In this document: in pieces, positions 3,601 to 29,500 of the stretch
Layout of the letters: each line of letters begins with the position of its first letter
How positions within the stretch are numbered: position 1 is the first letter of the stretch
Assembly: GCA_903915465.1 (NCBI GenBank)
Contig: CAIWTA010000030.1
Span: 1-34,745, forward strand
DNA: 34,745 bases
From: an uncultured Bacteroidales bacterium
GTDB lineage: Bacteria > Bacteroidota > Bacteroidia > Bacteroidales > FEN-979
Reading direction: 5' to 3'
Notes under the pieces: generated by a model
What the model was told of the DNA's origin: nothing
The model's input: only the letters and a program-made list of their open reading frames with translations
Databases searched by the model: none
Position numbers and translations under genes: made by a program

Positions 3601-4604
3601 TTAATAGTATTACCTTGAATATTGCTGGCTGAAGCAGTTCCAACATTCAAGTGAATTCCATAAAATTGATTCGCGTTACTACCTATTGTTAAGGCGGAAC
3701 CACCGCAATTAGCTGCATTGCCACCAATAAAATTGCCTGATATGGTAAAATTATTACCTGATATGTTTGATATATATATCCCCCAACCATAGCTTCCTGT
3801 TATTGGAGTAGTTTCATACAGACTATTCCCTGTTACATTCCAGGAAGTAGAATTATTGGAAATGAATATTCCACACGAATTTGCGGAACTATTTAAAAAA
3901 TCAAAAATATTATTGTTGCTTATGGTATTATTACTATTTTCATAACCAGGCGACCCTACAGAATTAATCGCATAAAATGGTCTATTTTCTTCAGCATTGG
4001 TAATATTGCAATTAGTAATGGCGTTATTAGAGTTGCCTAATCCTGATGATGCAGTGGAAAATAATAACACCCCCCCGGAAGATTGATCAGCTGAAGACCC
4101 TTTAACTGTACAATATTTTACCGTATCGTTAGCAGCTGCATTAATAAACCGTATAGTCGAGACACTTGCCGCATAATATATCTGTGTGTTTGTAATGAGG
4201 AGGTCTTTGGTTGAACCTGTTGCATTTACTCTTCCGTCGATGGTAACATGATCTGCACCATTTAAATCAATAAGAGGAGCAGCAAGGTCACCGCTGATAG
4301 TGAGGCCGGTGACAGTGGGATAAATATTAACAGATGTATAGTTTGATTGTGGGTCTGATTTGCCAGGTGGATTATATCCGCTTTGATACAAAATAGCAGA
4401 GAGTGATTCTGTAGTGTTGCCGTTTATTTTGATTGTAATTGCTCCCTGGTGGGTACCATCATTGATTTTATCGAATGCTGCTTTTAAAGTAGCATACATG
4501 GTCGGACCAGTGGTTCCTGATGTGGCGGTTACTTCAACTTCAGATTGAGCATTTGCCCCTGCGCAAATGAGCAAAACAACCAAAATTGTAATTATTCTTT
4601 TCAT
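612..4604 (-). CDS. Secreted right-handed parallel beta-helix protein with T9SS sorting domain
   Basis: 1330 aa. The signal peptide is residues 1-19 (MKRIITILVVLLICAGANA-Q). Residues about 25-790 are a long parallel beta-helix rich in short repeats such as ISNNTI, ITNNTV and VSGNFIHSL. Asn, Ser, Thr, Gly and Ile dominate. A WTGSESTDWNTPGNW module starts near residue 798 and leads into beta-rich domains containing VPNPYPSAIDWD. A pre-C-terminal module (DEIVVRF to IDRFMVHF) follows, and the last ~75 residues are a type A T9SS sorting domain (VYNSLGQLLSDD ending HFVTKVYNK). Such domains direct transfer across the outer membrane and surface attachment. The helix is collinear with that of the 2672-aa protein at 26530-34548. 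The ligand is unknown; adhesin or glycan-binding roles are guesses. Confidence 0.9.
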   Translation of the reverse strand: MKRIITILVVLLICAGANAQSEVEVTATSGTTGPTMYATLKAAFDKINDGTHQGAITIKINGNTTESLSAILYQSGYNPPGKSDPQSNYTSVNIYPTVTGLTISGDLAAPLIDLNGADHVTIDGRVNATGSTKDLLITNTQIYYAASVSTIRFINAAANDTVKYCTVKGSSADQSSGGVLLFSTASSGLGNSNNAITNCNITNAEENRPFYAINSVGSPGYENSNNTISNNNIFDFLNSSANSCGIFISNNSTSWNVTGNSLYETTPITGSYGWGIYISNISGNNFTISGNFIGGNAANCGGSALTIGSNANQFYGIHLNVGTASASNIQGNTIKNFAITSTVDPFYGIYLESGAVNVGTSIGNTIGATTGTGSIMLTNTTADATSYGIYINSAGTFDIENNNIGAITTVGSATIAHSFTGIFDGSSVMNTISNNTIGSATTPNSIQASSSGTSAAAQNVYGIYCQGTGTVAISGNTIANMSNAYASTSVTGGQIIGVLSTICSGSNTITNNTVRDLTIANANNAGTYQASVGGIVLNNTTAAAQTITDNTIYNLSNTYASFGGSVIGLYYSGSTTASAVSGNFIHSLSVTGASSTTASIYGIKINAGATTYSNNIISLGGNTATTIYGIYETGAESNDNNLYFNTVYIGGTVASLTIKSYALYSAVNTNTREIRNNIFNNARAFNNPIKTASTHFAAYFAATGGTLTCDYNDYYAAGTSGVLGYYGGYKTTLPIVTGQDAHSLNTNPSFASAGGTAALNYITSASLPGVAGTGITIDYAGTTRSATPTMGAYELAPASATWTGSESTDWNTPGNWSSSSVPFTTSDVTIPVTITDGVTYDPIVNQSSGTPAECKNLTIDLGAVLTIAPGKALTVNGTLTNSAGTAGLVIQSSAAGTGSLIHATNNVNATIQRYTTGSTDLTVFKYHFVSVPLTAAAAPTSNLFLGSYLENFSESTNSWVSMGASTTNSLDVTRGYMIYYPESSTTYSFAGPMNNGSFTALTSYSTGNGYNLVPNPYPSAIDWDAASGWTKTHIDNAVYIWPSNAGSGATATNYASYVNSVSINSGSRYISTGQSFFVHANATSPVLTMDNRVRLHNAVSFLKDAEIINNILRIHSVANNSDDEIVVRFTEAATTGFDGDWDAYKMQGGTEAPQLSSVASDNSNLSINSLPFSAGNVTVPLNFSLNTCADVTFTASSMESFTNNIPIYLEDLTLSKMVNLRQNPVYTFKYETGSAIDRFMVHFAGPIGTEELSANTGKAFISNGRLFIEVPGMKGQMADIRVYNSLGQLLSDDKIMMNEIVRVDAPLNTGVFMVHVATSNQHFVTKVYNK

Positions 4605-9858: not shown

Positions 9859-10527
9859 ATGTGTGGCAGATATTCTTTCATCCTCGAGGATGAATTGATC
9901 AAAGAAAGATTCGGTGTAACTGTGCGGAGTGCAATATATAAGGCCAGATACAACTGTGCTCCCACGCAGGATCTTGCTGTCATTTCGGATGAAGCTCCCG
10001 GAACATTGAGTTTTTACCGTTGGGGATTGATCCCTTTCTGGGCCAAAGATATTTCTATCGGAAACAAGCTGATCAATGCGAAATCTGAAACAATCCTTGA
10101 AAAACCCTCTTTTAAAACCTCTTTCAGAAATAAGCGGTGCCTCGTCCTTGCTGATGGCTATTATGAGTGGAAAAAGGAAAAAGAGAAGATCCCGTACCGG
10201 ATTACATTGAAAGACAAATCACCATTTTCACTTGCCGGAATATGGGATAAGTGGATCAGGGCTGATGGTGAGATTATCCATTCATTCTCTATCCTCACCA
10301 TTGCATCCCCGACGAAAATGGAACTGATCCATGACAGGATGCCGGTAATCCTGGACCGGAGCGATGAAAGTAAATGGATAGAAAGAACGGGTGAAAGAGA
10401 GCTTCAGGATTTACTTCGTCCATACCCTGTAGAAAAACTCACTGCTTACCCGGTGTCAAAATTAGTTAATTCGCCGCGGAATGATATTGCGGAAATACTT
10501 GTTCCCGCAGGCGATCTGCTGTTTTAA
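9859..10527 (+). CDS. SOS-response-associated peptidase family protein (YedK/HMCES-like)
   Basis: 222 aa, the usual SRAP length. It starts MCGRYSF, so Cys2 becomes the N-terminal nucleophile after Met removal. NAKSET (about 74-79), the YYEW motif (about 101-104) and IHDRMPVIL with the conserved His complete the active site. Family members bind single-stranded DNA and form a protective thiazolidine crosslink with abasic sites. The ATG at 9859 is fixed by the requirement for Cys2. It converges on the LuxE-like gene; the two stop codons overlap by 4 bp. No LexA-type operator is evident upstream. Confidence 0.95.
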   Translation: MCGRYSFILEDELIKERFGVTVRSAIYKARYNCAPTQDLAVISDEAPGTLSFYRWGLIPFWAKDISIGNKLINAKSETILEKPSFKTSFRNKRCLVLADGYYEWKKEKEKIPYRITLKDKSPFSLAGIWDKWIRADGEIIHSFSILTIASPTKMELIHDRMPVILDRSDESKWIERTGERELQDLLRPYPVEKLTAYPVSKLVNSPRNDIAEILVPAGDLLF

Positions 10528-11504
10528 CCGACCATCAGGTTACATCCGCGTACATCGCCCGGGTCAAATCTTCCAAGCACTTCAAAAGAACCGTCCCCGT
10601 GAGTTTTCCCAAGATCATCTGTAGCGATAAATGAGCAGGAGTTGAAATTGGCCAGATCGATGATGTTCAGACAACCTGTTTTTTCAAAAGGAAATAGCTG
10701 GAATGGATCATTGGGATCGCGGGTCAACACTTTCATCCATGGCGGAGTGTAAAATCGCCCATTCCCCTTAGAATACGCTTGTGATAACAGCTCAGTCATC
10801 CCATATTCCGAATGAATTGGAGAGATCCCGAATTTCTCTGTCAAAACAGCATGAAGCTCTTCCCGGATCATTTCTTTCCTTTTACCTTTCATTCCCCCGG
10901 TTTCCATGATGATCAAATCCGGTGATGAGGATTGAAAATATTCTGCAAAATCCAGCAGGGCATAGCTTAGGCCGATAATCAGCGGTTTCCGGGAATTCCG
11001 ATCATTTTTCTGAAGAATCTCTGTCAGCCTTGTAAAATCGTGGAGATAAAAACCGGATCGTCCGGAAGGAGTGTTATTAATCCATTCATTCACCATGAAG
11101 ATCAGCGAGGAATCAGGGTTTTCTTCTGGCGCTGGCATCAGTGCGAAAATATCATAATCATCCAATGATCCATAAAATTTTTCAAATCCACAAAAAAGTG
11201 ATTCCCTGTATACCTTCAAATCTGTTACCGGATGTTTGCTTTTGTCTGTCCCGGTTGTTCCGCTGCTCTGGAATGTCTTCTGAGTAACCATGTTTCCGCA
11301 TTTGACGGTACTTGTTTTAAAGAAAAGGATCGGGATAAATGGTATCTGCAGGAAATTCATAATGTTTGAATGCGCTATGCCAAGTGCATCCACATATTTA
11401 TGATATGTTTCATTCTGGTCGTACTGGTACCGAAAAATTTCCAGGGCCACTTCGTTAAATGTACGTTCATCAGAGATATTGAAGATCCTTTCGATAAATT
11501 TCAT
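10524..11504 (-). CDS. LuxE-type acyl-protein synthetase / AMP-forming ligase
   Basis: 326 aa. The adenylate-forming fold is indicated by the phosphate-binding FQSSGTTGTDKSKH (78-91), then METGGMKGKRKEM (about 211-223), HSEYGMTELLSQAYS (about 241-255), and the C-terminal ATDDLG and VLGRFDPGDVRGC segments. The overall arrangement matches the LuxE/acyl-protein synthetase family rather than full-length acyl-CoA synthetases. It probably activates a carboxylate as an acyl-adenylate and passes it to a thiol. The substrate is unknown, and no luxCD partner is nearby. The gene is single on the minus strand between a convergent SRAP gene and a divergent lipoprotein gene. Confidence 0.85.
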   Translation of the reverse strand: MKFIERIFNISDERTFNEVALEIFRYQYDQNETYHKYVDALGIAHSNIMNFLQIPFIPILFFKTSTVKCGNMVTQKTFQSSGTTGTDKSKHPVTDLKVYRESLFCGFEKFYGSLDDYDIFALMPAPEENPDSSLIFMVNEWINNTPSGRSGFYLHDFTRLTEILQKNDRNSRKPLIIGLSYALLDFAEYFQSSSPDLIIMETGGMKGKRKEMIREELHAVLTEKFGISPIHSEYGMTELLSQAYSKGNGRFYTPPWMKVLTRDPNDPFQLFPFEKTGCLNIIDLANFNSCSFIATDDLGKTHGDGSFEVLGRFDPGDVRGCNLMVG

Positions 11505-14217: not shown

Positions 14218-15473
14218 GAGAACAACGCGGCATATTTCAACACATAGACTGGTGGGTGGCCATACTATTTCTTGTCCTGGTTATATTGGGATGGATCAAT
14301 ATCTATGCTGCAGTTTACGATGAGAACCACAGCAGCATCCTCGACATGGATGCCAGGTATGGAAAGCAGATGATCTGGATCCTGGCTTCATTGCTCCTGG
14401 CTATGGTTATCCTGTTAATTGATGGAAAATTCTTTTCCCAGTTTGCATACCTGTTTTACGGAATCTGTATTCTATTGCTTATCGCAGTGATTTTTTCAGG
14501 AAGGGAAATTTCAGGGTCAAAATCGTGGTTCCAGGTTGGTGGAATTGCACTTCAACCTGCCGAGTTTGCTAAAATCGGTGCTGCTCTTGCGGTTGCAAAA
14601 TACCTTGGCAACCTGGATGTGGACATCGGGAAAACACGCACTTTGCTCACACTTGCCGGAATATTATTATTGCCGATGATTTTAGTGATACTTCAACACG
14701 ATGCGGGATCTGCAATTGTTTTTGTTTCCCTGATTTTTGTTTTTTACCGTGCCGGAATGTCAGACAAGCTGATGTTGCTGCTTGTTGCAATTCCTCTTTT
14801 GGCAGTCCTTGCGCTCGGAATGAATAAATATATCCTGCTTGTTGTAATGTTCGTATCAGGTACGGTTTACTTCTTATCTACACGGCGAAAAATAAAAACA
14901 TTACTCACGATCATTGCCATTTTTATAGCCTCTGTCGTGTATGTTTTTTCTGTGGATTATGGCGTGAATAAGTTTCTCGAGCCTCATCAACGGACACGCA
15001 TAAATGTTCTGTTCGGAAAAGATATTGATCTGAAAGGAGCAGGATATAATGTGAACCAGTCGCTCATAGCAATTGGCTCCGGTGGATTCTGGGGTAAGGG
15101 ATTTCTGCAGGGAACGCAGACTAAATACAATTTTGTGCCGGAGCAGAGTACTGATTTCATCTTTTGTACCGTTGGGGAAGAATGGGGATTCCAGGGTAGT
15201 TTCCTGGTGATTGCTTTGTTTGTCACATTATTTTTCAGGATAATATTTCTGGCTGAACGACAGCGTTCAAAATTCAGTCGCTTGTATGGCTATGGCGTTG
15301 CATCTATCCTGTTCCTGCATTTTGCAATTAATATCGGGATGACCCTTGGGCTTGTTCCTGTGATCGGTATTCCATTGCCATTTTTCAGCTATGGAGGATC
15401 TTCTCTTTGGGCGTTCACGATTTTATTGTTTATTTTTATACGTCAGGATTCCTACCGTTATGAATTACTCTGA
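14214..15473 (+). CDS. rodA: RodA peptidoglycan glycosyltransferase (SEDS family)
   Basis: 419 aa polytopic membrane protein with about ten hydrophobic segments. SEDS-family signatures include GSKSWFQVGGIALQPAEFAK near residues 101-120, FVPEQSTDFIFCTVGEEWG in the large periplasmic loop, and GLVPVIGIPLPFFSYGGSS near the C-terminus. It polymerises lipid II into glycan strands and works with the PBP2 encoded immediately upstream. The start overlaps the PBP2 stop by 4 bp, indicating coupling. Its own 3' end overlaps the following regulator gene by 14 bp. Confidence 0.96.
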   Translation: MREQRGIFQHIDWWVAILFLVLVILGWINIYAAVYDENHSSILDMDARYGKQMIWILASLLLAMVILLIDGKFFSQFAYLFYGICILLLIAVIFSGREISGSKSWFQVGGIALQPAEFAKIGAALAVAKYLGNLDVDIGKTRTLLTLAGILLLPMILVILQHDAGSAIVFVSLIFVFYRAGMSDKLMLLLVAIPLLAVLALGMNKYILLVVMFVSGTVYFLSTRRKIKTLLTIIAIFIASVVYVFSVDYGVNKFLEPHQRTRINVLFGKDIDLKGAGYNVNQSLIAIGSGGFWGKGFLQGTQTKYNFVPEQSTDFIFCTVGEEWGFQGSFLVIALFVTLFFRIIFLAERQRSKFSRLYGYGVASILFLHFAINIGMTLGLVPVIGIPLPFFSYGGSSLWAFTILLFIFIRQDSYRYELL

Positions 15474-16050
15474 GAAAAAACCGGTTCTCAAAAAGCTACG
15501 TCTGAAGAACATGGTATGCAATTGCTGCATTCACCTGATCCGGAAAGCATTGTCCTTAGATGGTGTTGAGATTCATGATCTCCGGTTGGGTTATCTCGGA
15601 ATTTCTTACTTTCCTTCAAAAATTTCATGGAAAAAAATTGCAGGGATTTTGAACGAATTTGGATTTGAAATTCTGGAAGATAAGGAAAGTGTTCTTGTGA
15701 TGCAGATCAAACAGGCGGTCATTGAAATGGTACATTATTCTACTTTCGATGCGATGGTAAAAAATTCTGATTACTTAGTGGGGAAATTCAATATTTCCTA
15801 TCCTTCTATTTCCGCAATATTCTCTAAACGGGAAAAAATAACCCTGGAGAAATTCATCATTCTTCAAAAAATTGAAAAAGTCAAGGAACTCATCGAATAC
15901 GGAGAATTGACTTTAAGTGAAATTGCCTATATGATGGGGTACAGCAGCGTGCAATATCTCAGCACGCAATTCAAAACAATTACAGGAATATCTGTGACTG
16001 ATTATAAAAGTGATCCCACCATAACACGGAAGTCATTGGAATCAATCTGA
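15460..16050 (+). CDS. AraC-type regulator with N-terminal HMA-like domain
   Basis: 196 aa from the ATG at 15460; the longer frame starting at 15391 only reads through rodA. Residues 10-75 look like a heavy-metal-associated-type ferredoxin-like fold with clustered cysteines C20, C22 and C23 (MVCNCC). Residues about 105-190 form two helix-turn-helix segments of AraC/XylS type, with LTLSEIAYMMGYSSVQYLST and FKTITGISVTDYK. Proteins of this build are common in Bacteroidota, and the cysteines suggest metal or redox sensing, which is inference. The 14-bp overlap with rodA implies translational coupling. The accessory cluster starts 127 bp further on, making this its nearest candidate regulator. Confidence 0.85.
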   Translation: MNYSEKKPVLKKLRLKNMVCNCCIHLIRKALSLDGVEIHDLRLGYLGISYFPSKISWKKIAGILNEFGFEILEDKESVLVMQIKQAVIEMVHYSTFDAMVKNSDYLVGKFNISYPSISAIFSKREKITLEKFIILQKIEKVKELIEYGELTLSEIAYMMGYSSVQYLSTQFKTITGISVTDYKSDPTITRKSLESI

Positions 16051-16155: not shown

Positions 16156-16177
16156 CAATCTGTAAAAATCATTGCTT

Positions 16178-16438
16178 ATGAAAGTCTCAAAAAATATTGC
16201 AATCAGCGATGCAGGTTTGGTCTTTAATCCGGTTACCGGAGAATCATTTTCCACCAATCCAATCGGTATGGAAATCATTCAACTGATACGGGAAGGCAAA
16301 TCCAACAAAGCAATCAGCGAATCAATGCTGGCACGATATACTACTGATCATTCGACATTTGAAAAAGATTTTCACGATTTCACCGAAGTGCTTAGACATT
16401 TCAATCTCCTGGAAGAAAATGAAGAAAAGAAAGCTTAA
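16178..16438 (+). CDS. Stand-alone PqqD-like protein (RiPP recognition element fold)
   Basis: 86 aa from the ATG at 16178; an in-frame TTG 6 bp earlier is less likely. The pattern follows PqqD: an N-terminal beta hairpin region (ISDAGLVFNPVTGESFSTN), then GMEIIQLIREGKSNKAI (helix 1 and turn), then a Tyr/Asp-rich helix ending DFHDFTEVLRHFNLL. In PqqD and related RRE proteins this winged-helix fold binds the leader of a precursor peptide and presents it to an enzyme. No separate short precursor gene is seen. The next gene, an ATP-grasp ligase, overlaps by 20 bp, so the two proteins are probably made together. This is the first gene of the accessory cluster. Confidence 0.8.
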   Translation: MKVSKNIAISDAGLVFNPVTGESFSTNPIGMEIIQLIREGKSNKAISESMLARYTTDHSTFEKDFHDFTEVLRHFNLLEENEEKKA

Positions 16439-17465
16439 TATCGGGGTTACCGGGCTGAATGCAATCGACAGTCCTGGTCCGGGAATATCTGTCATCCGTG
16501 GATTACGTGAGGCAGCGTCTTTTGATGTGCGGATCATCGGACTTTCTTATGAGTCTCTTGAACCCGGGATATACATGCACGATGTGGTCGACAAAACGTA
16601 CCAGATCCCATATCCGTCAGCAGGTACTGATATGTTACTTCCAAGGCTTGAATACATCCATGAGATTGAAAAGCTCGATGTTATCATCCCCAATTTTGAT
16701 GCAGAATTATTTCCTTTTATCAAGCTGGAGCACAAGTTGAAGGCGATGGGAATTCACATGTTTCTGCCTACACTCAAACAGTTTGAAGAAAGGCAGAAAG
16801 TGAATCTGAGTTCATTTGGAGAAAAATATGGCATACATGTTCCGAAATGCAAAATCCTCTATGATCTTGCCACGGTTCATAGCCTGACTTCTGAGTTTGA
16901 TTTCCCGGTTGTTGTAAAAGGAAAATTTTATGACGCTTCCATTGCTTACAACATCGACCAGGTCAGGAGTTATTACAACAAGATCAGTGCAAAGTGGGGA
17001 TTACCCATCATCATCCAGGAATTTATTCATGGTACAGAATTTAATGTTACCGGGTTGGGCGATGGGAAAGGCAATACCATGGCTGCAGTTGCAATGCGAA
17101 AACAATATATCACGGATAAAGGAAAAGCCTGGGGAGGTATTTCCATTGCTGATGAAAAAATTCTGGGTATGACGAGGAAATTTCTCAAGAACACCAAATG
17201 GCGCGGCGGATTTGAGCTGGAATTGATGAAGAACAAAGACAATGAACTGTACCTTTTAGAGATTAATCCACGATTGCCGGCATGGATATACCTGGCTGTC
17301 GGAGTTGGCCAAAACATACCCGAAGCGCTTGTCAATCTTGCTATAGGTAATACAGTCACACCCTTCAAGGAATACACGATCGGGAAAATGTTTATCCGTT
17401 ATTCGTGGGATATGATAGTTGACCGTGAAGAGTTTGAGCAGATTTCCGTTTACGGTGAATTGTAA
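16419..17465 (+). CDS. ATP-grasp ligase (carboxylate-amine ligase type)
   Basis: 348 aa from the ATG at 16419, preceded by GGAAGA; the frame begins further upstream (16359) but that part overlaps the pqqD-like gene body. Residues 1-120 form a Rossmann-like pre-ATP-grasp domain (LNIGVTGLNAIDSPGPG). The ATP-grasp core runs about 125-310: FPVVVKGKF (162-170), IIIQEFIHGTEFNV (197-210), a Gly-rich AWGGIS loop (237-242), FELELM (265-270), and the metal-binding LLEINPRLPAWIYL (279-292). Such enzymes activate a carboxylate as acyl-phosphate and join it to an amine or thiol. The carbamoyl-phosphate-synthase-like character fits, but the substrate is unknown. The context suggests peptide or amino-acid substrates. 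Confidence 0.88.
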   Translation: MKKRKLNIGVTGLNAIDSPGPGISVIRGLREAASFDVRIIGLSYESLEPGIYMHDVVDKTYQIPYPSAGTDMLLPRLEYIHEIEKLDVIIPNFDAELFPFIKLEHKLKAMGIHMFLPTLKQFEERQKVNLSSFGEKYGIHVPKCKILYDLATVHSLTSEFDFPVVVKGKFYDASIAYNIDQVRSYYNKISAKWGLPIIIQEFIHGTEFNVTGLGDGKGNTMAAVAMRKQYITDKGKAWGGISIADEKILGMTRKFLKNTKWRGGFELELMKNKDNELYLLEINPRLPAWIYLAVGVGQNIPEALVNLAIGNTVTPFKEYTIGKMFIRYSWDMIVDREEFEQISVYGEL

Positions 17466-17500
17466 GTGTATTAAGCTACCTAAAAAGAAAAAAAATAAAA

Positions 17501-17610
17501 TGTCACGCAGAGTTTTGCAAAGTTATTCGCAAAGGTTCGCAGAGGGTAAATTCATATTATCAATACTCTGCGTGACTCTGCGATTCATCAGCGAGCCACT
17601 GCGGGAAATA
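17501..17610. repeat. Dispersed element C, complete copy (CGCAGAG family)
   Basis: CGCAGAGT and CGCAGAG on the left (17506-17544) are complementary to CTCTGCG and ACTCTGCG on the right (17566-17582), separated by an AT-rich middle, so the element can fold into a long imperfect hairpin. The same left arm and middle recur at 34678-34745, where the window ends. It fills the space between the ATP-grasp and decarboxylase genes and would lie within a common transcript. Confidence 0.8.
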
Positions 17611-17637
17611 TTTAAATTATCTTACAAAAAGTAGAAT

Positions 17638-18996
17638 ATGGAAAAGATCAGATATGAAAGGCCTGTCATTAAAAAGCTGGAAAGCAACATGCCAAACAAG
17701 TTTGGTTCACGAACTGAATATGCGCCGATGACACACATTGATGGTGTTGCCGTAAAAGAATTGATCACCAATTTTGGGTCACCGCTTTTTGTTATTTCAG
17801 AAAAGACAATTCGTTCAACAGTGGCAAAAGCCAAAAAGGCCTTTGAAACACGTTATCCGAAAGTCCAGTTTGCCTGGTCATACAAAACCAATTACCTGAA
17901 TGCTATCTGCAGCATTTTTCACCAGGAAGGTTCCTGGGCCGAGGTGGTTTCGGGATTTGAATATGACAAAGCCATTTCCTTAGGCGTTGACGGGAAGAAG
18001 ATCATTTTCAACGGGCCTGAAAAGACCGATGAAGATCTTACCAAAGCCATCAAAAATGATTCGCTGATCCACATTGATCATCTTGATGAATTTTACACCA
18101 TCGTATCTCTTACGGAAAAGCTGAAGAAAAAACCCCGCGTTGCCATCAGGGTAAATATGGATACCGGTGTATATCCTATGTGGGACAGGTTCGGATTCAA
18201 CTATGAAAACGGTCAGGCATGGGATGCAATTAATAAGATCATTCATTCAGGTAAGATGGAACTTGTCGGGCTGCATTGTCACATCGGGACGTTCATGCTG
18301 GCACCTTCTGCTTATGGTGTAGCTGCCACTAAACTTGCAGAACTGGCGATGTCGGTGAAGACAAAATTTGACCAGGAAATAAGCTATATCGACCTTGGAG
18401 GTGGTTTTGCTTCAAAAAACACGTTGAAAGGGTCATATCTGCCGGGAAATGACACCAATCCTACGATTGATGATTTCGCGGAAGCAATTTCCACTGCTTT
18501 GTTAAATGCAAACTTCAAAAAAGACAAATTGCCATTACTGATCCTTGAAACCGGTCGCGCATTAATTGATGAAGCCGGATATCTGGTCGGTACAATCATC
18601 TCCAACAAACGTTCAAGCGCCGGGCGCAGAACGACTATTGTAGACATCGGTGTGAATATTCTCTTTACTTCCTTCTGGTACGATCACAAGATCACCCCGG
18701 CACAGCCATTTACGCACTATTCTGAAGATACTTGCGTTTATGGACCACTATGTATGAATATCGATGTCATACGGGAGAGTGTCAATTTGCCTCTGCTTAA
18801 CAGAGGAGAACATATCGTGGTTCACACCGTTGGTGCTTATAATATGACTCAATGGATGCAATTTATCTCCCTGCGGCCCAGGATTGTACTCATCGATTTA
18901 GATGAAAAATGCCATGTGATCCGTGAAAAGGAAACCTTGGACACCATTACTTCACTTGAAAAAATTCCGGGACATCTGAAAAAATTCGATTTATAA
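17638..18996 (+). CDS. Fold-III PLP-dependent decarboxylase with RiPP-leader-like N-terminus
   Basis: 452 aa. The alanine-racemase-fold core resembles diaminopimelate/ornithine-type decarboxylases. PLP Lys83 is in FAWSYKTN. Also visible are EVVSGFEYD (102-110), GLHCHIG with H215 (211-217), DLGGGFASK (252-260), ETGRALIDEAG (304-314), and C372 and D376 in YGPLCMNID, the usual acid pair across the dimer. Y401 in GAYNMTQ stacks near PLP in relatives. All catalytic residues are present, so it is probably active, but substrate specificity cannot be assigned. Residues 1-25 are extra: Y6-E-R-P9-V-I11 fits the YxxPx(L/I) pattern of lasso-type RiPP leaders, followed by a NKFG turn. A stand-alone RRE protein is encoded two genes upstream. 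Confidence 0.9.
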   Translation: MEKIRYERPVIKKLESNMPNKFGSRTEYAPMTHIDGVAVKELITNFGSPLFVISEKTIRSTVAKAKKAFETRYPKVQFAWSYKTNYLNAICSIFHQEGSWAEVVSGFEYDKAISLGVDGKKIIFNGPEKTDEDLTKAIKNDSLIHIDHLDEFYTIVSLTEKLKKKPRVAIRVNMDTGVYPMWDRFGFNYENGQAWDAINKIIHSGKMELVGLHCHIGTFMLAPSAYGVAATKLAELAMSVKTKFDQEISYIDLGGGFASKNTLKGSYLPGNDTNPTIDDFAEAISTALLNANFKKDKLPLLILETGRALIDEAGYLVGTIISNKRSSAGRRTTIVDIGVNILFTSFWYDHKITPAQPFTHYSEDTCVYGPLCMNIDVIRESVNLPLLNRGEHIVVHTVGAYNMTQWMQFISLRPRIVLIDLDEKCHVIREKETLDTITSLEKIPGHLKKFDL

Positions 18997-19005
18997 TTCT
19001 GCGGA

Positions 19006-21207
19006 ATGATTAAACGGCTTAGTAACATCTTTCCCTCTTTCCTGACAAGTATCTTAGATAGCTACACCCAGGTGTTCTTCTCAAACAATAAGCTGTTTGC
19101 GTTGATCCTGATCCTTACGACATTCGTTGATCCTTTTGCCGGGATAAGCGGGTTGGTGGCAGTTGTTTTTGCAAACACACTGGCTTACCTGATCGGTTTT
19201 AACCGGCAAAATATCAAGGCAGGTTTTTATGGATTCAACAGCCTTCTCGTCGGTCTTGGAATGGGCGTTTTTTATCAGCCCGGTTTTCAATTTTTCATTC
19301 TGCTGATCTTTACTTCACTGCTTACATTGTTGTTAACAGTAATGATGGAAGGAGTTATAGGGAAGTATGGATTACCTTTTCTCAGCTTGTCTTTCCTGTT
19401 GGGGATCTGGCTCGTGACACTTGCTTCCCGTGAGTTTACCGCCCTTACCATCAGCGAGCGGGGCATCTACCACATGAACGAAATGTATTCCATTGGCGGA
19501 TTATCCATGGTAAAAACCTATAATTGGTTCCAGGAACTGCCGTTGCATGAATCCATAAAACTATATTTCCGTTCATTGGGAGCCATCTTCTTCCAGTACC
19601 ATATGTTCGCCGGAATACTGGTAGCTATCGGGCTCCTGATCTACTCCCGGATCGCCTTTGTGCTTTCCCTGCTCGGTTTTTTTTCAGCGTTCTTTTATTA
19701 CCAGTTTATCGGGGCAAATATTTATGAACTCAGTTATGGTTATATCGGTTTCAATTTTATTCTCACTGCCATAGCTATTGGAGGGTATTTCATTATTCCG
19801 TCCGGGTTCTCCTTCCTTTGGGTAATTCTTCTTACACCGCTCATCTCCATCTTTCTTACAAGTACCAATGCAGTATTTGGATTATTTCAGTTATCCGTTT
19901 TCTCACTGCCTTTCAATCTTACCGTGCTATTGTTCCTGTATATCCTGAAATTCCGGGATCGCTCATTTACAAAGCCTGAAATAGTGGGGTTTCAGCAGAT
20001 ATCTCCGGAAAAAAACCTTTATTCTCAACTCAATTATAAGGGAAGGTTTGGTAAATATCCTGCCGTTTCAATCGCACTGCCTTTTTGGGGCGATTGGAAG
20101 GTAACCCAAGCGCACAACGGACTTCTTACGCATCAGGGTGATTGGAAACATGCATGGGATTTTGAAGTTGTGGATGGTGAAGGACTTTCTTTTGCAGATG
20201 ATGGACATTTCAGAGAACAATATTATTGTTTCCATAAGCCCGTTTTGGCGCCTGCCGATGGATGGGTGGAAGAAATCACTGATGAAGTAGATGATAATGA
20301 CATCGGCCAGGTGAACCTTGAACAAAACTGGGGAAACACAATCGTTATCAAACATTTTGACCATTTTTATTCAAAACTCTCTCATCTTGAAAAAGGAAGT
20401 TTCAAGGTCAAAAAGAACGATTTTGTAAAAAAAGGTGATATCCTTGCAGCATGCGGAAATTCAGGTCGTTCTCCCATTCCTCATCTTCATTTTCAGCTGC
20501 AGGCAAATCCTTTCATTGGATCGAAAACATTAGACTATCCCATCGGACATTTTATTCTGCACAAAAAACTTCAATTCGACCTGAAATCATTCGAAAGACC
20601 TGAAACCAACGACCTTGTTTCTAATCTCGAAAAGAACTCCGCCCTTGAAAAATTCTTTCATTTCATCCCCGGACAGAAACTTCAGTTCCAGGCAAAGACA
20701 TGTACCGGAGATTTTCCGGTTGATTGGGAAGTCCAGGCTGACGCAGTAAACAATTCTTTCATTTATTGCGCGTTTACTAAATCAAAAGCATGGTTCAGGT
20801 ACGATGGTGACATTCATTATTTCACCTATTTTGAAGGCGACCGGAAATCGTTATTGTACCTGTTTTTTCTTGGCGCTTATAAAGTCACAACAGGTTTTTA
20901 TAAGAATCTGCTGGTACGGGATTCATTTCCATTGAGCTTAGTGACAAATAAAGGAGTGATTTTCCTGCAGGATTTCATCGCACCATTCTGGCTGTTCATG
21001 AAACCGGAATTTGAAATGGAATATGTTAAATTGGAAGATAATTTCACCAATACCAACCTCTTATTACGCTCCACAATGCAACTGAAAATCGGTAAATATG
21101 TATTGAGAAAAATCGAATTTGAATTTGAGATTTCACGTAATGGTCTTACAAGCTTATCGATTATCGAAAAAGATAGAAAAGTAGAAGTAAATGCAGTTAA
21201 AAGTTAA
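19006..21207 (+). CDS. Urea-transporter-like channel fused to M23-type metallopeptidase
   Basis: 733 aa. Residues about 30-315 hold around ten hydrophobic segments with the two-fold repeat of the urea transporter (UT) family: GLVAVVFANTLAYLIGFNR...GFYGFNSLLVGLGMG (49-87) and FFQYHMFAGILVAIG...YGYIGFNFILTAIAIGG (195-260). Residues about 365-515 are an M23 (LytM-like) domain with a variant first motif H382-A-W-D385, later H450 and H460 (SHLEKG), and H493-L-H495-F. The remaining ~215 residues are beta-rich and unrecognised. The canonical first motif is HxxxD; here spacing is HxxD, a variant I believe occurs in M23 relatives. If the channel has ten TMs with its N-terminus inside, the peptidase would face the cytoplasm. 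The gene starts 9 bp after the decarboxylase stop. Confidence 0.85.
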   Translation: MIKRLSNIFPSFLTSILDSYTQVFFSNNKLFALILILTTFVDPFAGISGLVAVVFANTLAYLIGFNRQNIKAGFYGFNSLLVGLGMGVFYQPGFQFFILLIFTSLLTLLLTVMMEGVIGKYGLPFLSLSFLLGIWLVTLASREFTALTISERGIYHMNEMYSIGGLSMVKTYNWFQELPLHESIKLYFRSLGAIFFQYHMFAGILVAIGLLIYSRIAFVLSLLGFFSAFFYYQFIGANIYELSYGYIGFNFILTAIAIGGYFIIPSGFSFLWVILLTPLISIFLTSTNAVFGLFQLSVFSLPFNLTVLLFLYILKFRDRSFTKPEIVGFQQISPEKNLYSQLNYKGRFGKYPAVSIALPFWGDWKVTQAHNGLLTHQGDWKHAWDFEVVDGEGLSFADDGHFREQYYCFHKPVLAPADGWVEEITDEVDDNDIGQVNLEQNWGNTIVIKHFDHFYSKLSHLEKGSFKVKKNDFVKKGDILAACGNSGRSPIPHLHFQLQANPFIGSKTLDYPIGHFILHKKLQFDLKSFERPETNDLVSNLEKNSALEKFFHFIPGQKLQFQAKTCTGDFPVDWEVQADAVNNSFIYCAFTKSKAWFRYDGDIHYFTYFEGDRKSLLYLFFLGAYKVTTGFYKNLLVRDSFPLSLVTNKGVIFLQDFIAPFWLFMKPEFEMEYVKLEDNFTNTNLLLRSTMQLKIGKYVLRKIEFEFEISRNGLTSLSIIEKDRKVEVNAVKS

Positions 21208-21279
21208 AAGTCGAAAGTCGAAAGTCGAAAGTAGAAAGTAGAAGGTCGAAAGTCTAAAGTCAAAAGTCAAAAGGTAGAA
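21196..21279. repeat. Heptamer array spanning stop codon to start codon
   Basis: Twelve 7-bp units run with no phase change: GTTAAAA twice, GTCGAAA three times, then GTAGAAA, GTAGAAG, GTCGAAA, GTCTAAA, GTCAAAA twice, and GGTAGAA. The first two units encode the last residues and TAA stop of the channel-peptidase gene. The last unit abuts the TTG start of the next gene. The purine-rich GGTAG at the end may serve as its ribosome-binding site. Confidence 0.95.
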
Positions 21280-22764
21280 TTGAAAATAAATAACAAATAT
21301 TTAGTCTTTATTCTTTTCATTGTGGGGCTTCCTTTTATGGCGGTTTCAGGGAATGATTTCAAGTCTGTTGATGAAACGACTTACAGATTGTATGAGGAAA
21401 AAAAATGGGACAGCCTGATAGTTGTGGGCAAACAGGCATTAAGAGATAATATCGACTACTATTTCCTGAGAATGAGGTTAGGAATAGCTTTTTATTCAAA
21501 GACGAAATATATCCCGGCAGCCGAACATTTCCGCAAGGCAACTGTTTTTAACTCACAGGATCCCGTAGCCTGGGAATACCTTTATAGTTCCTATGTTCTT
21601 GCAAACCGGAACAACGAAGCACTTGCCGTGGTGAAAATGATGCCAACAGGAATTCAGGAAAAATACAAGTCGAACAAGAAATTTGTTGAAATGATAAGTT
21701 TTGAAGGTGGCCCGACTTTCAGTTCCGACAATAATAAAAAGAATAACCTTGACATCATGAGCCAACCCGCTCCATATGGAGAACAGGATCTTTATGGGAA
21801 CAATTATTATGGCCAACTTGGCCTGTTGATGAATCTGTCAAACAGGGTGAACCTGAAGGTTGCCTATAATTACCTGAATTTTTCAAAGACAAAATATTTT
21901 CAATACACCCAGTATGAAAACATATTAGATTCAGTTTCCCGCTATCCGTGGGGATATGTCAACAATTATCATCCACCAACATTATATTCTCTTGAGTTTC
22001 CTTACCATGTCAGGCAGCAGGAACTGAATCTCGAATCAGATATTGTTTTGGGTAATGGTTTCAGAATTGAACCTGCGGTTCATTTCGTTAAGGTCAATTA
22101 CAATAATATTACACTTAAATATAGCAAAAAGAGTATCATCGATACTTTGGTTTTTGATTCTATAACACCTGTATTCGTTACTGAGGCAGTTAAAAAAGAG
22201 AATTATTCCGTTATCCAGAATGACACAAGTTTTATCAACTATGTCATTTCTCTTGGGATATCGAAAGACTTTTCAGTATTCAACATTTGCCTGAATGGAA
22301 GCTTCGCGAACCTCAATAATAAAAAACAGTTTCAGGTGGGCGGATCTTTCACCTTCTATCCATTTGGGAACCTTAATTTTTATGGTACTTCTTCAGCAAC
22401 AGGTTTTTTTCAGAAAAAAGATAAAAGACTGATTTTAGCTCAATCGCTTGGCGGGAAAGTATTTAAAAAACTCTGGCTTGAAGGAAATGTGATCTATGGC
22501 GACCTTACCAATGCCAATATTGCCAATGGAAGCATTGTTTATAACAATGCCGATAAAATCGATTATCGTATTGGCGGAAATCTGATCTGGTTGCTTTCAA
22601 AACATTTGGAACTTTCTCTTGTTTACCAATACTTTCAGAAAGAAAGCTCTACGGTTTACTATCTCTTTGATGGAACAACCCTCCCTTCGTCCACAACTAT
22701 GCAAATCCAGAATAATAAATATCACACAAACACTATAATAATTGGAATTAAATGGAAACTCTGA
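21280..22764 (+). CDS. TPR plus outer-membrane beta-barrel protein
   Basis: 494 aa from a TTG at 21280, chosen because it is followed at once by a proper signal peptide (MKINNKYLVFILFIVGLPF, cleaved near VSG-ND). The next in-frame ATG would remove most of it. Residues about 28-125 are TPR-like helices (YYFLRMRLGIAFYSKTKYIPAAEHFRKA). From about residue 150 the protein alternates amphipathic beta strands with polar turns (GQLGLLMNLSNRVNLKVAYNYL) and ends in a strand with terminal aromatic/hydrophobic residues (IIIGIKWKL), as in outer-membrane barrels. It may form the outer-membrane exit or receptor of the cluster. The following gene overlaps by 13 bp. Confidence 0.8.
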   Translation: MKINNKYLVFILFIVGLPFMAVSGNDFKSVDETTYRLYEEKKWDSLIVVGKQALRDNIDYYFLRMRLGIAFYSKTKYIPAAEHFRKATVFNSQDPVAWEYLYSSYVLANRNNEALAVVKMMPTGIQEKYKSNKKFVEMISFEGGPTFSSDNNKKNNLDIMSQPAPYGEQDLYGNNYYGQLGLLMNLSNRVNLKVAYNYLNFSKTKYFQYTQYENILDSVSRYPWGYVNNYHPPTLYSLEFPYHVRQQELNLESDIVLGNGFRIEPAVHFVKVNYNNITLKYSKKSIIDTLVFDSITPVFVTEAVKKENYSVIQNDTSFINYVISLGISKDFSVFNICLNGSFANLNNKKQFQVGGSFTFYPFGNLNFYGTSSATGFFQKKDKRLILAQSLGGKVFKKLWLEGNVIYGDLTNANIANGSIVYNNADKIDYRIGGNLIWLLSKHLELSLVYQYFQKESSTVYYLFDGTTLPSSTTMQIQNNKYHTNTIIIGIKWKL

Positions 22765-23387
22765 GAAAAAATCTGAATTGTTTTTTGTTTTTCGTTTTTG
22801 GTCTGATACTATCGTTAAACCTGCATGCCCAAAGTGATTTAAAAATCATTGAGAATGCATTTGAATCAAGCTATGCCATGGAAACGAAAGCTGAATATGC
22901 AAATGCTGTTGCTACCGTCAAAGCTGTTTACAACGAAAATTCTTACGAGATTAATCTCCGGTTAGGCTGGTTGACTTATTTATCCGGGTTATTCACAGAA
23001 TCAACTGCTTATTACCAAAAGGCTATAAAAATCCGCCCCTATTCCATTGAGGCGAAGTTCGGTTTTGCTTATCCTGCATCAGCCATCGGAAACTGGGATC
23101 AGGTTTTAACACAATACCAGGAAATTCTGAAAATTGATCCGCAGAATACATTGGCAAATTACCGGATGGGGTCGATTGCTTATGGTAAAAACGATTTTGC
23201 ATCTGCAGAGAAATATCTTGAGAAGGTAGTAAACCTTTATCCTTTCGATTACGACAGCAACATCCTCTTTGCCTGGACCAATTATAAATTGGGTAAACTT
23301 CGCGAATCTCAAGTTCTGTTCCACAAGGTTCTCCTTATTAAACCGAAGGATTCTTCGGCAATGGAAGGATTGGGACTGATAAAATAA
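22752..23387 (+). CDS. Secreted TPR protein
   Basis: 211 aa. A signal peptide (residues about 8-26, ending LNLHA-QS) precedes four to five TPR-type helix pairs: LRLGWLTYLSGLFTESTAYY, AKFGFAYPASAIGNWDQVLT, LANYRMGSIAYGKNDFASAE and ILFAWTNYKLGKLRESQVLF. It should be a periplasmic scaffold or adaptor. Its ATG lies within the end of the TPR-barrel gene (13-bp overlap), so the two are very probably translated together and may interact. It is the last gene of the cluster. Confidence 0.85.
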   Translation: METLRKNLNCFLFFVFGLILSLNLHAQSDLKIIENAFESSYAMETKAEYANAVATVKAVYNENSYEINLRLGWLTYLSGLFTESTAYYQKAIKIRPYSIEAKFGFAYPASAIGNWDQVLTQYQEILKIDPQNTLANYRMGSIAYGKNDFASAEKYLEKVVNLYPFDYDSNILFAWTNYKLGKLRESQVLFHKVLLIKPKDSSAMEGLGLIK

Positions 23388-26529: not shown

Positions 26530-29500
26530 TTACAAATTGACTTTCCTTGTAAACACCCCGTTGGTTGAGATCATCTTAACAATATAATTCCCTTTGCTAA
26601 CCGAAGGCCTGAGAGTGATAATTCTGTCACTGTTTACTTTTACTTTCATCATTTCCTTTCCTAAAATGTCGTAGATATAAACTTCACCCTTCAAAGGTTC
26701 TCCATCCTTTGATTGAATATATATGCAATCATTATAGGAATAGATCTGAACAGCACCTGAATTATTCAGCTCATTTACTTTAAATGAAGGGTTGTAGAAA
26801 TGAAGCAGGAATCTGTCGGGATTATCAATCGTATCGTAGGTAAAACTGTACTCCGGGTACATTCTCAGGTTCTGCGTAGTGTTTAATTTCAGATCCTCAA
26901 GATTGATGGAAATATTATCCGGGAAACTTCCGGCTTCACTTGCATTAAGAAGATAATCTCCAGGAATACTGACATAAAAGCCCATAGGAACAGTAAAATT
27001 CATTTCTGTAAAAGAAAGCGCATTCACCGTCACCATTGTATCCCTTATCTTTGTATAAATCTGTGGTGCGTCTGCATTGCCATGAAATTTTAATGCATCA
27101 TAACCAGGTTCATAATAACCATTTCTTTCAGGATTAAAATAGATTGAAAGTTCGTCGGAATATTGATTGACTGTTCCTGTTGCCTTAATGCGAAGCAGAT
27201 CTGGAATCAATTCTGCTTCCTTCCAGAATGGCTCTGATAACGTATGCGTTCGTGCAGCATTAGTAAATCCTACTGATCCGCTGTTTTGCTGTGGAGATGG
27301 ATTTGTTCCGCTGTTGCAATGAACAAAAAAGCCCTGCATTGGAGGAATGTATTGTGAATGTGTTCCTCCTCCTCCTGAAACCCAGACCTTATAATTACCT
27401 GAGCCACTCAGATCCCAGAACCAGGTAGCCGATTCAGCTCCGGTATATGCCAATTGAGAAGCATCAAGTCCTGAAGGATAAGGATTTCCAAGTAAATTCC
27501 AGCCATTATAATCAGAAGAACCTGCATTCCATGTCCTGGTAACATTGATGTTTTGATTTCCGGTGTTCAGCGACCCGGTAAATAATTTTGTCGAAGTGTT
27601 ATTGACCCATACTGCAAATCCTTTCATTGGATCCAACAAAATATCAGTTGGAATGATGAATTCATATTTATACAAAGGTTCGTTGTATTGCATAAGATAC
27701 TCTGTCAAAAATATTCCGGATTGGCCGGCAGTTATCGGAGAAGACACCATATGCCATTCGCTCTCAGATCCTGAATTTGTGAGGTATCTTTGCACTGTTG
27801 CCGTTCCGCTTCCGCTAATGCCATTGTCAATAAATGAAGCAGAACCACTTGCATTAGATTTTAGCACTAAACTTTCCCCTGAGCCGAGGGTTGTGGTGCC
27901 ATTTACCGTAAGGTTTTTTGCCGGATTGATTATCATTGAGCCATCAACCACTGTGAGGTTGCCATTTACATTTGTATTTACATTAAAAACTGCTCCATAA
28001 ACGTTTGAGATTGAAAGATGATTAAATGTAAGAGCTGTTGTTCCGGAAATTGTCTGTTCATCGGGACCATTCATCACCACAGTTCCTCCATTGGCGGAAA
28101 AAGTCGCAGCTATTGTCATATCCCCATAGATGGAAAGGGAGGAAGCAGGCATGGTCTTGGTTCCGGAACCACTTAGAAACAGGTTATGATATCCGGGGGT
28201 TAATCCATTTGGGTTTACTATTGCCTGACTGCCGCCATTATATTCTATATTGTTATCGAATATCGCAGCATTGAGGGTTCCATCATTGGTTAATGTTCCG
28301 GAAATTTGTGTTGATGAGTTGGTCGTCATTGTCAATCCTGAACCATTTAAGAGTGAAAGGTTGAAAAAACTGGTATACCCATTTATGGTTGCACTCGCGT
28401 TTGAAAATTTGACTGTGCTGGTACCTGCGTTAAAAGTTCCTCCGACATTGTTCCATGCGCTACTGCCACCATTTATGGTTAATTGTGCAGATGAAGCCGA
28501 ATTCAAAATACCTGCAGCATCAATGGTTAAGGTTTTTATTTCGGTTACACTGGGTAAAGTCGGAGAGTTTAGCGTTGTTGAAGCGTCCGGAATGATAATA
28601 TTTTTATCTGATGATGGTCCTGCATTTGGGGTCCAGTTTTCAATACTGGTCCAGGAGTCAGATACCGATCCATTCCATGTCAGCGTTGATGTGGTACTAT
28701 ACTCATCAAGTGTAATATTTTTATTTGCATCCCAGGTCGATGTGAAGTAATTGCCCACGTTAATATTTGAAAGAGCAATCCAATTATCTGTTGAATTATA
28801 AGCCGACCGTCCGTATTCCAAATTCGGTGTTGGTCCGACCCACAAAACCAAATGTCCTTCATCATTTCCGTTGAGTTCGGAATCGAGGTAGTGAATTGAG
28901 AATACAGCTTTGGTACCACTTCCGCCGGTTTGAATAACCTGTATTTCGCGAGCTATTGCTCCTGAACTCCAGGAAGGTACTGTTCCAATAGTGATCTTCG
29001 CGCTCATTTGAGTCGGCATTGTTCCTTCGGTAGGGAAATATGCTGTTGTAAACTCATTTCCAAAAGTATAAGTAACTCCTGAAACGATGCTGCCTCGTGT
29101 TACAATTCCTGTAACATCACCAATTCCAGTAGTGGTGGCTGATGCGCCCATGGTCAGTGTTTTCATCGCAGAACCATCCCACATATCGAGGCTGCCTTTG
29201 GTAGACGATGGGTTCTCACTTTGTAAATGGAGCAGGCCATTTACAGTAAAATCACTGCTTGAGGTAACGCCGCCTGTAGCGTTTATGGTTAAATTATTGA
29301 CATCCCCCGAAAAAATTGAGACAGGAAGCGTTATGGCAGTGGTATTGGTAAAAGTTAAAGTAGCTGAAGAATTACTTGCATCAATAGTACCGCTTGTTCT
29401 TACGGGCGAACTTCCTGATAATGTTAATGTATTTGCACCAAGATTAAATGTTCCTGATGATAACTCCAACAGTCCGTTTACCATCACGTTTTGATTGCCA

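Follow-up and report, generated by a model that had tools for sequence, protein, structure and literature searches.

The window analysed here, a stretch of 34,745 nucleotides from an uncultured Bacteroidales bacterium of the GTDB family FEN-979 (contig CAIWTA010000030.1, assembly GCA_903915465.1), carries six consecutive plus-strand genes between positions 16178 and 23387, all of which were present in the list of open reading frames (ORFs) and in a check of the sequence. The genes form a cassette in which a stand-alone recognition element of the kind known from ribosomally synthesized and post-translationally modified peptides (RiPPs), the RiPP recognition element (RRE), stands next to an ATP-grasp ligase, a pyridoxal phosphate (PLP) decarboxylase with a leader-like N-terminus, a urea-transporter-type (UT) channel fused to an M23 domain, an outer-membrane barrel and a tetratricopeptide repeat (TPR) protein. 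The six genes are as follows.

16178..16438, + strand: stand-alone PqqD-type RRE (86 aa; PF05402, 31.6 bits, cut-off 23.4)
16419..17465, + strand: ATP-grasp ligase (348 aa; Pfam ATPgrasp_Ter, 39.8 bits, and ATP-grasp_3)
17638..18996, + strand: alanine-racemase-fold PLP decarboxylase, FigC/FslC-like (452 aa; Pfam Orn_Arg_deC_N, 101.1 bits, and Orn_Arg_deC_C)
19006..21207, + strand: UT channel fused to an M23 domain and a C-terminal beta domain (733 aa; Pfam UT, 199.5 bits, and Peptidase_M23, 56.3 bits)
21280..22764, + strand: TPR-like helices followed by an outer-membrane beta-barrel (TTG start; from the AlphaFold2 model and Foldseek)
22752..23387, + strand: TPR protein with an N-terminal hydrophobic, signal-like segment (Pfam TPR_2, 53 bits; segment read off the translation)

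The PqqD gene was taken to start at the ATG at 16178 and the ligase gene at the ATG at 16419; the mechanical ORFs begin at a TTG at 16172 and upstream at 16359, respectively. PqqD and ATP-grasp genes overlap by 20 bp (16419-16438), the decarboxylase and UT-M23 genes are separated by 9 bp (18997-19005), and the genes for the TPR-barrel and the TPR protein overlap by 13 bp (22752-22764). A preliminary description of this DNA, made from the letters alone, had reported these six same-strand genes, both overlaps and the short gap, and its coordinates were reproduced. Its domain calls (PqqD, ATP-grasp, PLP decarboxylase, UT with M23, and TPR) were all matched in Pfam, the stand-alone PqqD-like RRE included. 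It had taken the junctions it listed to indicate co-translation of gene pairs, and it did not mention the 172-bp gap between the ligase and decarboxylase genes (17466-17637) or the 72-bp gap between UT-M23 and the TPR-barrel (21208-21279), so that two junctions are neither overlapping nor close.

The conservation of the cassette was scored in three sets of loci, from the same GTDB family, from named loci and from the whole phylum, with some genomes shared between sets. The family set held 20 of the 33 other family genomes with a UT-M23 match of at least 57% identity (34 of 43 genomes had such a match, the window's own included), and the phylum set held 20 of 33 other genomes with UT-M23. A locus was considered testable if it had at least 4.5 kb of upstream and at least 4.7 kb of downstream flank, which left 79 of 120 loci, 72 of them distinct. 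All six genes stood in the same order in 19/19 family, 38/41 named and 6/19 phylum-wide loci (56/72 distinct), and the PqqD-ATP-grasp-decarboxylase block lay upstream of UT-M23 in 19/19, 39/41 and 19/19, respectively (77/79; 70/72 distinct). The fall in the full-order count in the phylum set arises because the barrel gene was missed by the profile; some of the barrel-less phylum loci have an unlabelled ORF of about 280 aa near the TPR gene. In all 20 family regions the ligase, decarboxylase, UT-M23, barrel and TPR genes were ordered on one strand, and PqqD was found in 19, the exception sitting at a contig edge. Identity to the window proteins in the family loci was 77-86% for the ligase, 80-85% for the decarboxylase, 58-64% for UT-M23, 61-69% for the TPR protein and 40-51% for the barrel.

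The co-occurrence across genomes agreed with the gene order. UT-M23 (E <=1e-40) and the cassette decarboxylase (>600 bits) were each found in 34 of 395 genomes of the phylum sample, and the two sets of genomes were identical; the other 11 of the 45 genomes returned by the decarboxylase search had LysA-type matches alone, below 190 bits. In the class sample the cassette decarboxylase occurred in 75 of 395 genomes (E <=1e-120). In two split loci (L076 and L077) the PqqD-ATP-grasp-decarboxylase block was elsewhere in the same genome, and because these genomes keep it, the two modules are held together by function and not by position alone. Six genomes from outside the phylum sample had a UT-M23 locus without a complete upstream half, and the decarboxylase was present in four of them, in one case on two contigs. 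The genes flanking the cassette change from locus to locus, rodA, mrdA and others being absent in several, which makes it a cassette rather than a case of general synteny. The six genes are therefore one conserved cassette of the Bacteroidota and their relatives, and the neighbourhood is not due to chance. The test proposed in the preliminary description, to score co-occurrence and order, was thus answered by conservation, and neither scattered homologues nor independent housekeeping roles were found, given that the decarboxylase and UT-M23 share the same 34 genomes and that 29 of the 33 other cassette genomes have a LysA of their own over the cut-off. The 80 named loci were mostly from Bacteroidota, with a few from Balneolota, Rhodothermota, Ignavibacteriota, Chlorobiota and Fidelibacterota. 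One locus (L079) is labelled Alphaproteobacteria; the label is probably misassigned and the locus from the window's own GTDB family.

The decarboxylase begins with a short conserved segment; the weaker matches of the LysA type start at model position 21-36, past the YxxPxI motif at 6-11. The segment and the RRE residues that appear to face it are located as follows.

17638..17706, + strand: leader-like N-terminal tag of the decarboxylase, aa 1-23, MEKIRYERPVIKKLESNMPNKFG (motif in 124/124 complete N-termini)
17653..17670, + strand: putative RRE-binding motif YERPVI, aa 6-11 (fits [Y/W]xxPx[L/V/I/F/A])
17698..17700, + strand: tag Lys21 (invariant in all tags seen)
16256..16258, + strand: PqqD Asn27, counterpart by spacing of LppB N33 (Asn in 155/157 distinct pairs, 2 gaps)
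16367..16369, + strand: PqqD Asp64, counterpart by spacing of LppB D70 (covaries with tag residue 1)

The tag comprises about 23 residues, mostly of the form [Y/F]E[R/K/S]Px[I/L/V]...K[F/Y/I]G, and a variable linker joins it to the enzyme body. It was found in 124/124 complete decarboxylase N-termini (100 distinct sequences); of the 134 decarboxylases checked, the 10 that failed the pattern were all cut short where their sequence ends. The pattern itself requires the Pro and the Lys, so the counts of these two residues are not independent of the search. Lys21 was invariant in an alignment of 23 rows that had been chosen by motif, as was Pro9, with Gly23 nearly so, and no complete N-terminus lacked the lysine. 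Two loci (L254 and L255) fail the pattern in the pair set described below, yet Y, P, I and K can be made out by eye in both, and their PqqD residue 64 is Asp. The first 41 residues of the window decarboxylase had no NCBIfam or Pfam match at E up to 10. According to the accessible part of PMC13381572, discrete RREs of the lasso type bind the leader motif [Y/W]xxPx[L/V/I/F/A], and the YxxP leader motif is also described in the part of PMC12710340 that was available. The cassette tag, as [Y/F]xxPx[I/L/V], agrees with this partner motif in all complete decarboxylases seen, the Phe variants aside.

The RRE has the residues expected of such a partner. In the accessible text of PMC13381572, D70 of the Bacillota RRE LppB hydrogen-bonds the leader tyrosine and N33 supports the proline kink; D70A weakened the complex and N33A nearly abolished it. 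Asn27 and Asp64 of the cassette PqqD are 37 residues apart, the same separation as N33 and D70, and are equivalent to them as judged by spacing and motif. The window PqqD nevertheless scores below the cut-offs of all seven PqqD-type NCBIfam models listed, the best of which was lasso_PqqD_Strm (25.6 bits vs a cut-off of 70). A second PqqD-family domain is encoded in the window's genome (G000:C122:26619-26789, in a 144-aa frame). The possibility that PqqD carries an amino acid on its C-terminus was discarded, as the C-terminus varies in both length and sequence.

The tag and the RRE also covary. PqqD was aligned with 94 further loci, and in an earlier set of 88 distinct pairs the combinations of tag residue 1, the aromatic residue of the motif, and PqqD residue 64 were Y-D in 61, Y-N in 3, F-Y in 21 and F-S in 3. 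The set was then extended with class and phylum genomes (90 added loci, 87 with PqqD and 85 with both proteins) to 157 distinct pairs, identical PqqD-plus-tag pairs being counted once, L254 and L255 being excluded and some loci representing the same genome twice. The counts were Y-D 128, Y-N 3, F-Y 22, F-S 3 and F-H 1, with no exceptions: no Phe tag was paired with Asp or Asn at PqqD 64, and no Tyr tag occurred without one of the two. Among 1779 columns (PqqD, ligase, decarboxylase body, UT-M23 and TPR), PqqD 64 ranked first by mutual information with tag residue 1, with a normalised value of 1.0 (next, 0.80), or 0.82 as a two-state column (next, 0.71), the measure being uncorrected for phylogeny. 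On trees of ligase plus decarboxylase body, and of ligase alone, only three switches were seen, and at each of them the two proteins changed together. The Tyr tags paired with Asn, three in all, are nested among the Phe tags, a position compatible with a reversion from Phe to Tyr on trees that give no direction of change. The pattern of the covariation is strong, the number of events behind it small. The pairing of RRE and decarboxylase suggested in the preliminary description gains support from the tag and the covariation, and the RRE probably binds the decarboxylase itself through the leader-like tag, since no separate precursor was found.

The decarboxylase has the catalytic set of the alanine-racemase fold: K83, H213, G254-256, E304/G306/R307 and C372 were invariant in 23 rows, with roles assigned by alignment with FigC, and Y401 was invariant too. 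The nearest solved structure was the N-citrylornithine decarboxylase 7kh2 (210 bits), followed by diaminopimelate decarboxylase (145 bits). In NCBIfam the nearest named family was FslC (NF041039), at 253.7 bits vs a cut-off of 500, and LysA (TIGR01048) scored 221.8 bits vs 297.9; the enzyme is thus neither LysA nor FslC by these cut-offs. A C-M loop is common to the cassette enzyme and FigC, whereas two aligned diaminopimelate decarboxylases have C-E. In addition, a Thr of the decarboxylase aligns with FigC T327, while the residue opposite T330 is an invariant Trp; the FigC residues are those given in the available part of PMC7857480, and the conserved Thr lies in the specificity region. On this comparison the likely substrate is an amino acid that carries an acyl group on its side chain, rather than free diaminopimelate. 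The ligase is an ATP-grasp enzyme by its Pfam domain and by the conserved KG and EiNPR motifs; it is of the carbamoyl-phosphate-synthase-like kind by its best NCBIfam match (84.7 bits), with a weak one to MfnD (31.3 bits), all NCBIfam matches being below cut-off, and no paralogue was found in the window's genome at E 0.001.

The fourth gene encodes three successive parts, modelled with a predicted local distance difference test (pLDDT) score of 89.8.

19045..19947, + strand: urea-transporter-type channel, aa 14-314 (Pfam UT; fold comparison)
20059..20598, + strand: M23 domain, about aa 352-531 (H376, D385, H460, H493, H495)
20623..21204, + strand: C-terminal beta-rich domain, about aa 540-733 (secondary structure of the model)

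The UT part has the complete urea-channel fold (Z of about 36 against the human and D. vulgaris UT); PF03253 was matched over its full length, and the yut equivalog TIGR03441 scored 124.5 bits vs a cut-off of 274.6. The M23 part resembles LytM domains (Z of about 15), and its zinc ligands, H..D..H..HxH, were all five invariant in 16 and again in 55 rows. The C-terminal domain, aa 540-733, was barely covered by the fold comparison and is left unassigned, and a family missing from that comparison is not thereby discounted. We read ten main spans in the modelled UT fold, its two termini lying on the same side. In the 55 rows that side had on average 9.8 Lys plus Arg and 3.1 Asp plus Glu, compared with 3.9 and 7.2 on the other side. 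The termini of UT-B are cytosolic. From the charge distribution, the ten spans and the homology to UT-B, the M23 domain is predicted to be cytosolic, and the cysteines 408, 483 and 588 of the soluble part, conserved in 84-93% of the 55 rows, agree with this location. The preliminary description had seen channel, peptidase and barrel as moving a product across both membranes: the channel and the M23 domain are there, and by the charge-based prediction a peptidase at work in the envelope is a less simple reading. Since M23 is predicted to be cytosolic, an action on peptidoglycan is unlikely.

The barrel protein had no Pfam family at E 0.1 and no NCBIfam match above cut-off. Its AlphaFold2 model (pLDDT 91.7) shows helices at residues 27-130 followed by long strands, and its best matches among solved structures, by Foldseek, were outer-membrane barrels. 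FadL headed the list (E 1.1e-10, template modelling scores 0.39/0.51, 7% identity), a weak match as regards the type of barrel.

Sequences show the cassette and how its genes co-occur, the tag, the RRE residues that match it and the covariation between the two; the substrate, the product, the order of steps, the direction of transport and a meeting of ligase and decarboxylase are what we infer in the following scheme. Its claim that the six proteins work as one functional unit, with an RRE-held decarboxylase beside the ligase, ligation followed by decarboxylation, and passage by way of UT and cytosolic M23 to the TPR-barrel, has in our estimate about an even chance of being correct. The cytosolic, biosynthetic half would consist of PqqD, the ATP-grasp ligase and the decarboxylase, and the membrane half of UT-M23, the TPR-barrel and the TPR protein. 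In the best-supported step, the PqqD RRE would grip the tag of the decarboxylase as lasso-type RREs grip the YxxPxI of a precursor leader, and this grip would put the decarboxylase next to the ligase. The ligase would couple a carboxylate and an amine; the resulting amino acid, acylated on its side chain, would then lose its alpha-carboxylate to the FigC-like decarboxylase, as N-citrylornithine does to FigC. The resulting small amide or amine would pass through the UT channel, where the M23 domain on the cytosolic side may trim or release it, and would cross the outer membrane through the TPR-barrel, presumably outward.

Several observations weigh against this scheme or parts of it, 1) three independent switches cannot give a significant sign test (p 0.5), 2) Phe occupies tag residue 1 in 26 of the 157 pairs and lies outside the published motif, 3) the conservation of the tag extends past the RRE motif to Lys21 and Gly23, which docking alone does not explain, 4) the second PqqD domain of the window's genome, on contig C122, is also over the Pfam cut-off, so that an exclusive pairing is not proven, 5) the analogy with FigC is a similarity below the family cut-off, 6) the topology of UT-M23 comes from the charge count and homology alone, 7) UT channels pass very small solutes, which limits the product, 8) in 13 of the 19 phylum-wide loci the profile gave no barrel gene of this type, and 9) among the six genomes whose UT-M23 locus lacks a complete upstream half, two, G439 (L131) and G441 (L081), of which the completeness was not given, had no decarboxylase match.

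A different assignment of the membrane half would make the cassette a system of the cell envelope, in which a periplasmic M23 domain has the barrel and the TPR protein as partners while the enzymes decorate or recycle stem peptides. The invariant zinc ligands, the LytM domains as nearest fold, the barrel and TPR genes downstream and the presence of rodA/mrdA near the cassette in many family loci are all in keeping with it. However, the distribution of charge places M23 in the cytosol, the model has ten main spans with the UT termini on the same side, and the three conserved cysteines fit the cytosol; the proposal is unlikely.

A reversal of the flow, with the barrel and UT importing a small amide that M23 and the enzymes then process, is also doubtful and would be compatible with the passive nature of UT channels, which work in either direction, and with a fold list headed by FadL, a fatty acid transporter that imports. 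Against it, a ligase that spends ATP, with a decarboxylase after it, suggests synthesis, and the neighbourhood has no additional gene that is general among the loci.

The conservation of Lys21 and Gly23 beyond the RRE motif would allow for a second role of the tag, either a contact with the ligase or covalent charging. In the latter case the tag could itself be the substrate, the decarboxylase serving as its own precursor or carrier: the ligase would charge Lys21 with an amino acid, the decarboxylase would act on it while it is tethered, and the cytosolic M23 domain would release the product at the mouth of the channel. We consider this quite unlikely. Lys21 is as invariant as Pro9, the predicted cytosolic M23 would supply the hydrolase needed for release, and the BtrJ/BtrK pair provides a precedent for a carrier-bound amino acid. 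Yet M23 peptidases are known for peptide bonds that contain Gly, not for isopeptides, and Lys21 could instead bind the ligase or the enzyme body. BtrK acts on a glutamate residue, according to the available part of PMC8503589. A cycle built on an enzyme-borne carrier, in which the RRE presents the tag to the ligase, the Lys is charged and decarboxylated in cis or in trans, and M23 releases the product into the urea-type channel, appears distinctly improbable as well; if true, its logic would lie between that of RiPPs and that of amino-group carrier proteins, with a 'precursor peptide' that is joined to the catalyst and serves repeatedly.

That the cassette is a classical RiPP cluster whose precursor lies elsewhere or was overlooked is very improbable. 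The combination of RRE and ATP-grasp, from which the preliminary description had derived a RiPP reading, does occur in RiPP clusters (as reported in the accessible parts of PMC12710340 and PMC8939145), and the PqqD protein belongs to the RRE family (PF05402). But the motif sits on the decarboxylase in 124/124 complete cases, and the tag profile found no second tag-bearing protein in the window's genome at E <1 (the next match was at E 1.54), a search that an unlike leader or a very short ORF could escape. Likewise, clustering of ORFs of at least 100 aa, shorter ones not being clustered, gave no neighbour gene general among 53 loci. The RRE domain is thus present while a separate precursor with a leader was not seen, and by this test the cassette is not a classical RiPP cluster; the leader-like sequence is that of the decarboxylase.

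Finally, it is highly unlikely that the decarboxylase is simply the cell's diaminopimelate decarboxylase among unrelated envelope genes, for although it scores 221 bits with the lysA model TIGR01048, rodA and mrdA lie upstream in many family loci, and no LysA over cut-off was found in the window's genome or in four of the 33 other cassette genomes (G073, G158, G166 and G407), a separate LysA over cut-off is present in the other 29 of the 33, the cassette decarboxylase is confined to 34 of 395 genomes, C-M replaces C-E, rodA/mrdA are not beside the cassette in several family loci, and another LysA-like gene of the window's genome scores slightly higher. The cassette enzymes of the 33 genomes scored about 213-248 bits. 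The LysA-like gene of the window's genome (G000:C139:22894-24066; 236 bits, below cut-off) lies, by eye, beside a sugar epimerase-like gene.

The scheme of an RRE-held decarboxylase has partial parallels in known systems. The cassette appears to work like RRE-leader recognition, with members of the PqqD RRE, alanine-racemase-fold decarboxylase, ATP-grasp, UT and M23 families. It shares with the discrete RREs of lasso/LPP pathways (PbaB1, FusB1 and LppB) a stand-alone PqqD-type RRE, the YxxPx[I/L] motif and, in N27/D64, counterparts by spacing of LppB N33/D70, but differs in that the motif is on an enzyme rather than on a precursor peptide, the genes include neither a lasso cyclase nor a precursor, and the RRE is below the PqqD-type NCBIfam cut-offs. 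FigC/FslC of rhizoferrin synthesis, the N-citrylornithine decarboxylase, is the nearest named relative and shares the C-M loop and a conserved Thr of the specificity region; the cassette enzyme departs from it in its FslC score, its ATP-grasp partner and its N-terminal tag. FigC works with FigA, a synthetase for siderophores made independently of nonribosomal peptide synthetases (NIS synthetase), as stated in the available part of PMC7857480.

The UT part shares its whole fold with the UT/SLC14 urea channels, including Gln22 in 48/55 and Phe77 in 52/55 rows, and differs by its fusion to M23 and the C-terminal beta domain. Ala193 (54/55 rows) aligns with a Glu of the D. vulgaris channel that has a role in the pore. 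To our knowledge, no counterpart has been described for this fusion of a urea-type channel with a zinc peptidase that is probably cytosolic. BtrJ and BtrK of butirosin biosynthesis are, like the cassette enzymes, an ATP-grasp ligase and an alanine-racemase-fold decarboxylase acting in series; butirosin, however, uses an acyl carrier protein (named in the BtrK entry), of which none was seen in the cassette, and BtrK is a much weaker match, at 79 bits. The peptidase-containing ATP-binding cassette transporters (PCAT exporters), in which a cytosolic peptidase is fused to an ABC exporter, are an analogy in idea alone; the cassette has another peptidase and a passive channel. The exporters PgaA and BcsC share a TPR-like domain and a barrel, whereas the cassette barrel has no NCBIfam match above cut-off and FadL as its best fold.

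The preliminary description had presented the cluster as undescribed, and indeed no library model scanned (Pfam, NCBIfam) and no paper found describes it. In the accessible part of a survey of Bacteroidales RiPP clusters (PMC10352776), PqqD appears in a reference only and ATP-grasp does not appear; that of a survey of graspetide ATP-grasp loci (PMC8939145) contains no decarboxylase, with PqqD as an analogy and in a reference only; and that of PMC12419801 contains no PqqD. The literature searched included few subscription papers, and an earlier mention would most likely stand in the survey that Iyer and colleagues published on amidoligase operons in 2009, so the novelty of the cassette is provisional. 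RREs serve as markers of RiPP clusters, a use which assumes that each RRE is paired with a precursor peptide; in this cassette an enzyme seems to take that place, and genome mining based on RREs would seek a peptide that may not exist. With 34/395 genomes of the phylum sample and 75/395 of the class sample, the pathway would be a common one. The contact between RRE and tag is directly testable with two small proteins.

Immediately upstream of the cassette, and not part of its core, is one further gene of the plus strand.

15460..16050, + strand: candidate regulator with an HMA-like N-terminus and an AraC-type helix-turn-helix (Pfam HTH_18, 45 bits)

Its HMA-type NCBIfam matches were weak and below cut-off, and a homologue was present in 17/20 family loci and 15/53 other loci; the protein is possibly metal- or thiol-responsive. 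Three candidates for a general additional cassette member, all named by eye, were rejected on their counts. A gene resembling eIF2B/MtnA-type isomerases is inserted between the decarboxylase and UT-M23 in 3/53 loci (L058, L071 and L078), a gene resembling sigma factors of the extracytoplasmic function (ECF) type occupies the same place in 4/53 (L090, L103, L120 and L121), and a gene for a secreted protein with a C-terminal sorting-like segment is near the cassette in 9/53 (L091, L095, L102, L105, L113, L122, L126, L127 and L128). Within the cassette, the gap between ligase and decarboxylase contains a stretch rich in GCAAAG/CGCAGAG that by eye resembles a dispersed repeat element, and that between UT-M23 and the barrel a low-complexity tandem repeat of the GTCGAAA type. 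Elsewhere in the window, a LuxE-like acyl-protein synthetase gene (10524-11504) lies near mrdA/rodA and is kept in many family loci, and two giant ORFs of the minus strand, 26530-34548 (2672 aa) and 612-4604 (1330 aa), had no Pfam match at 1e-5.

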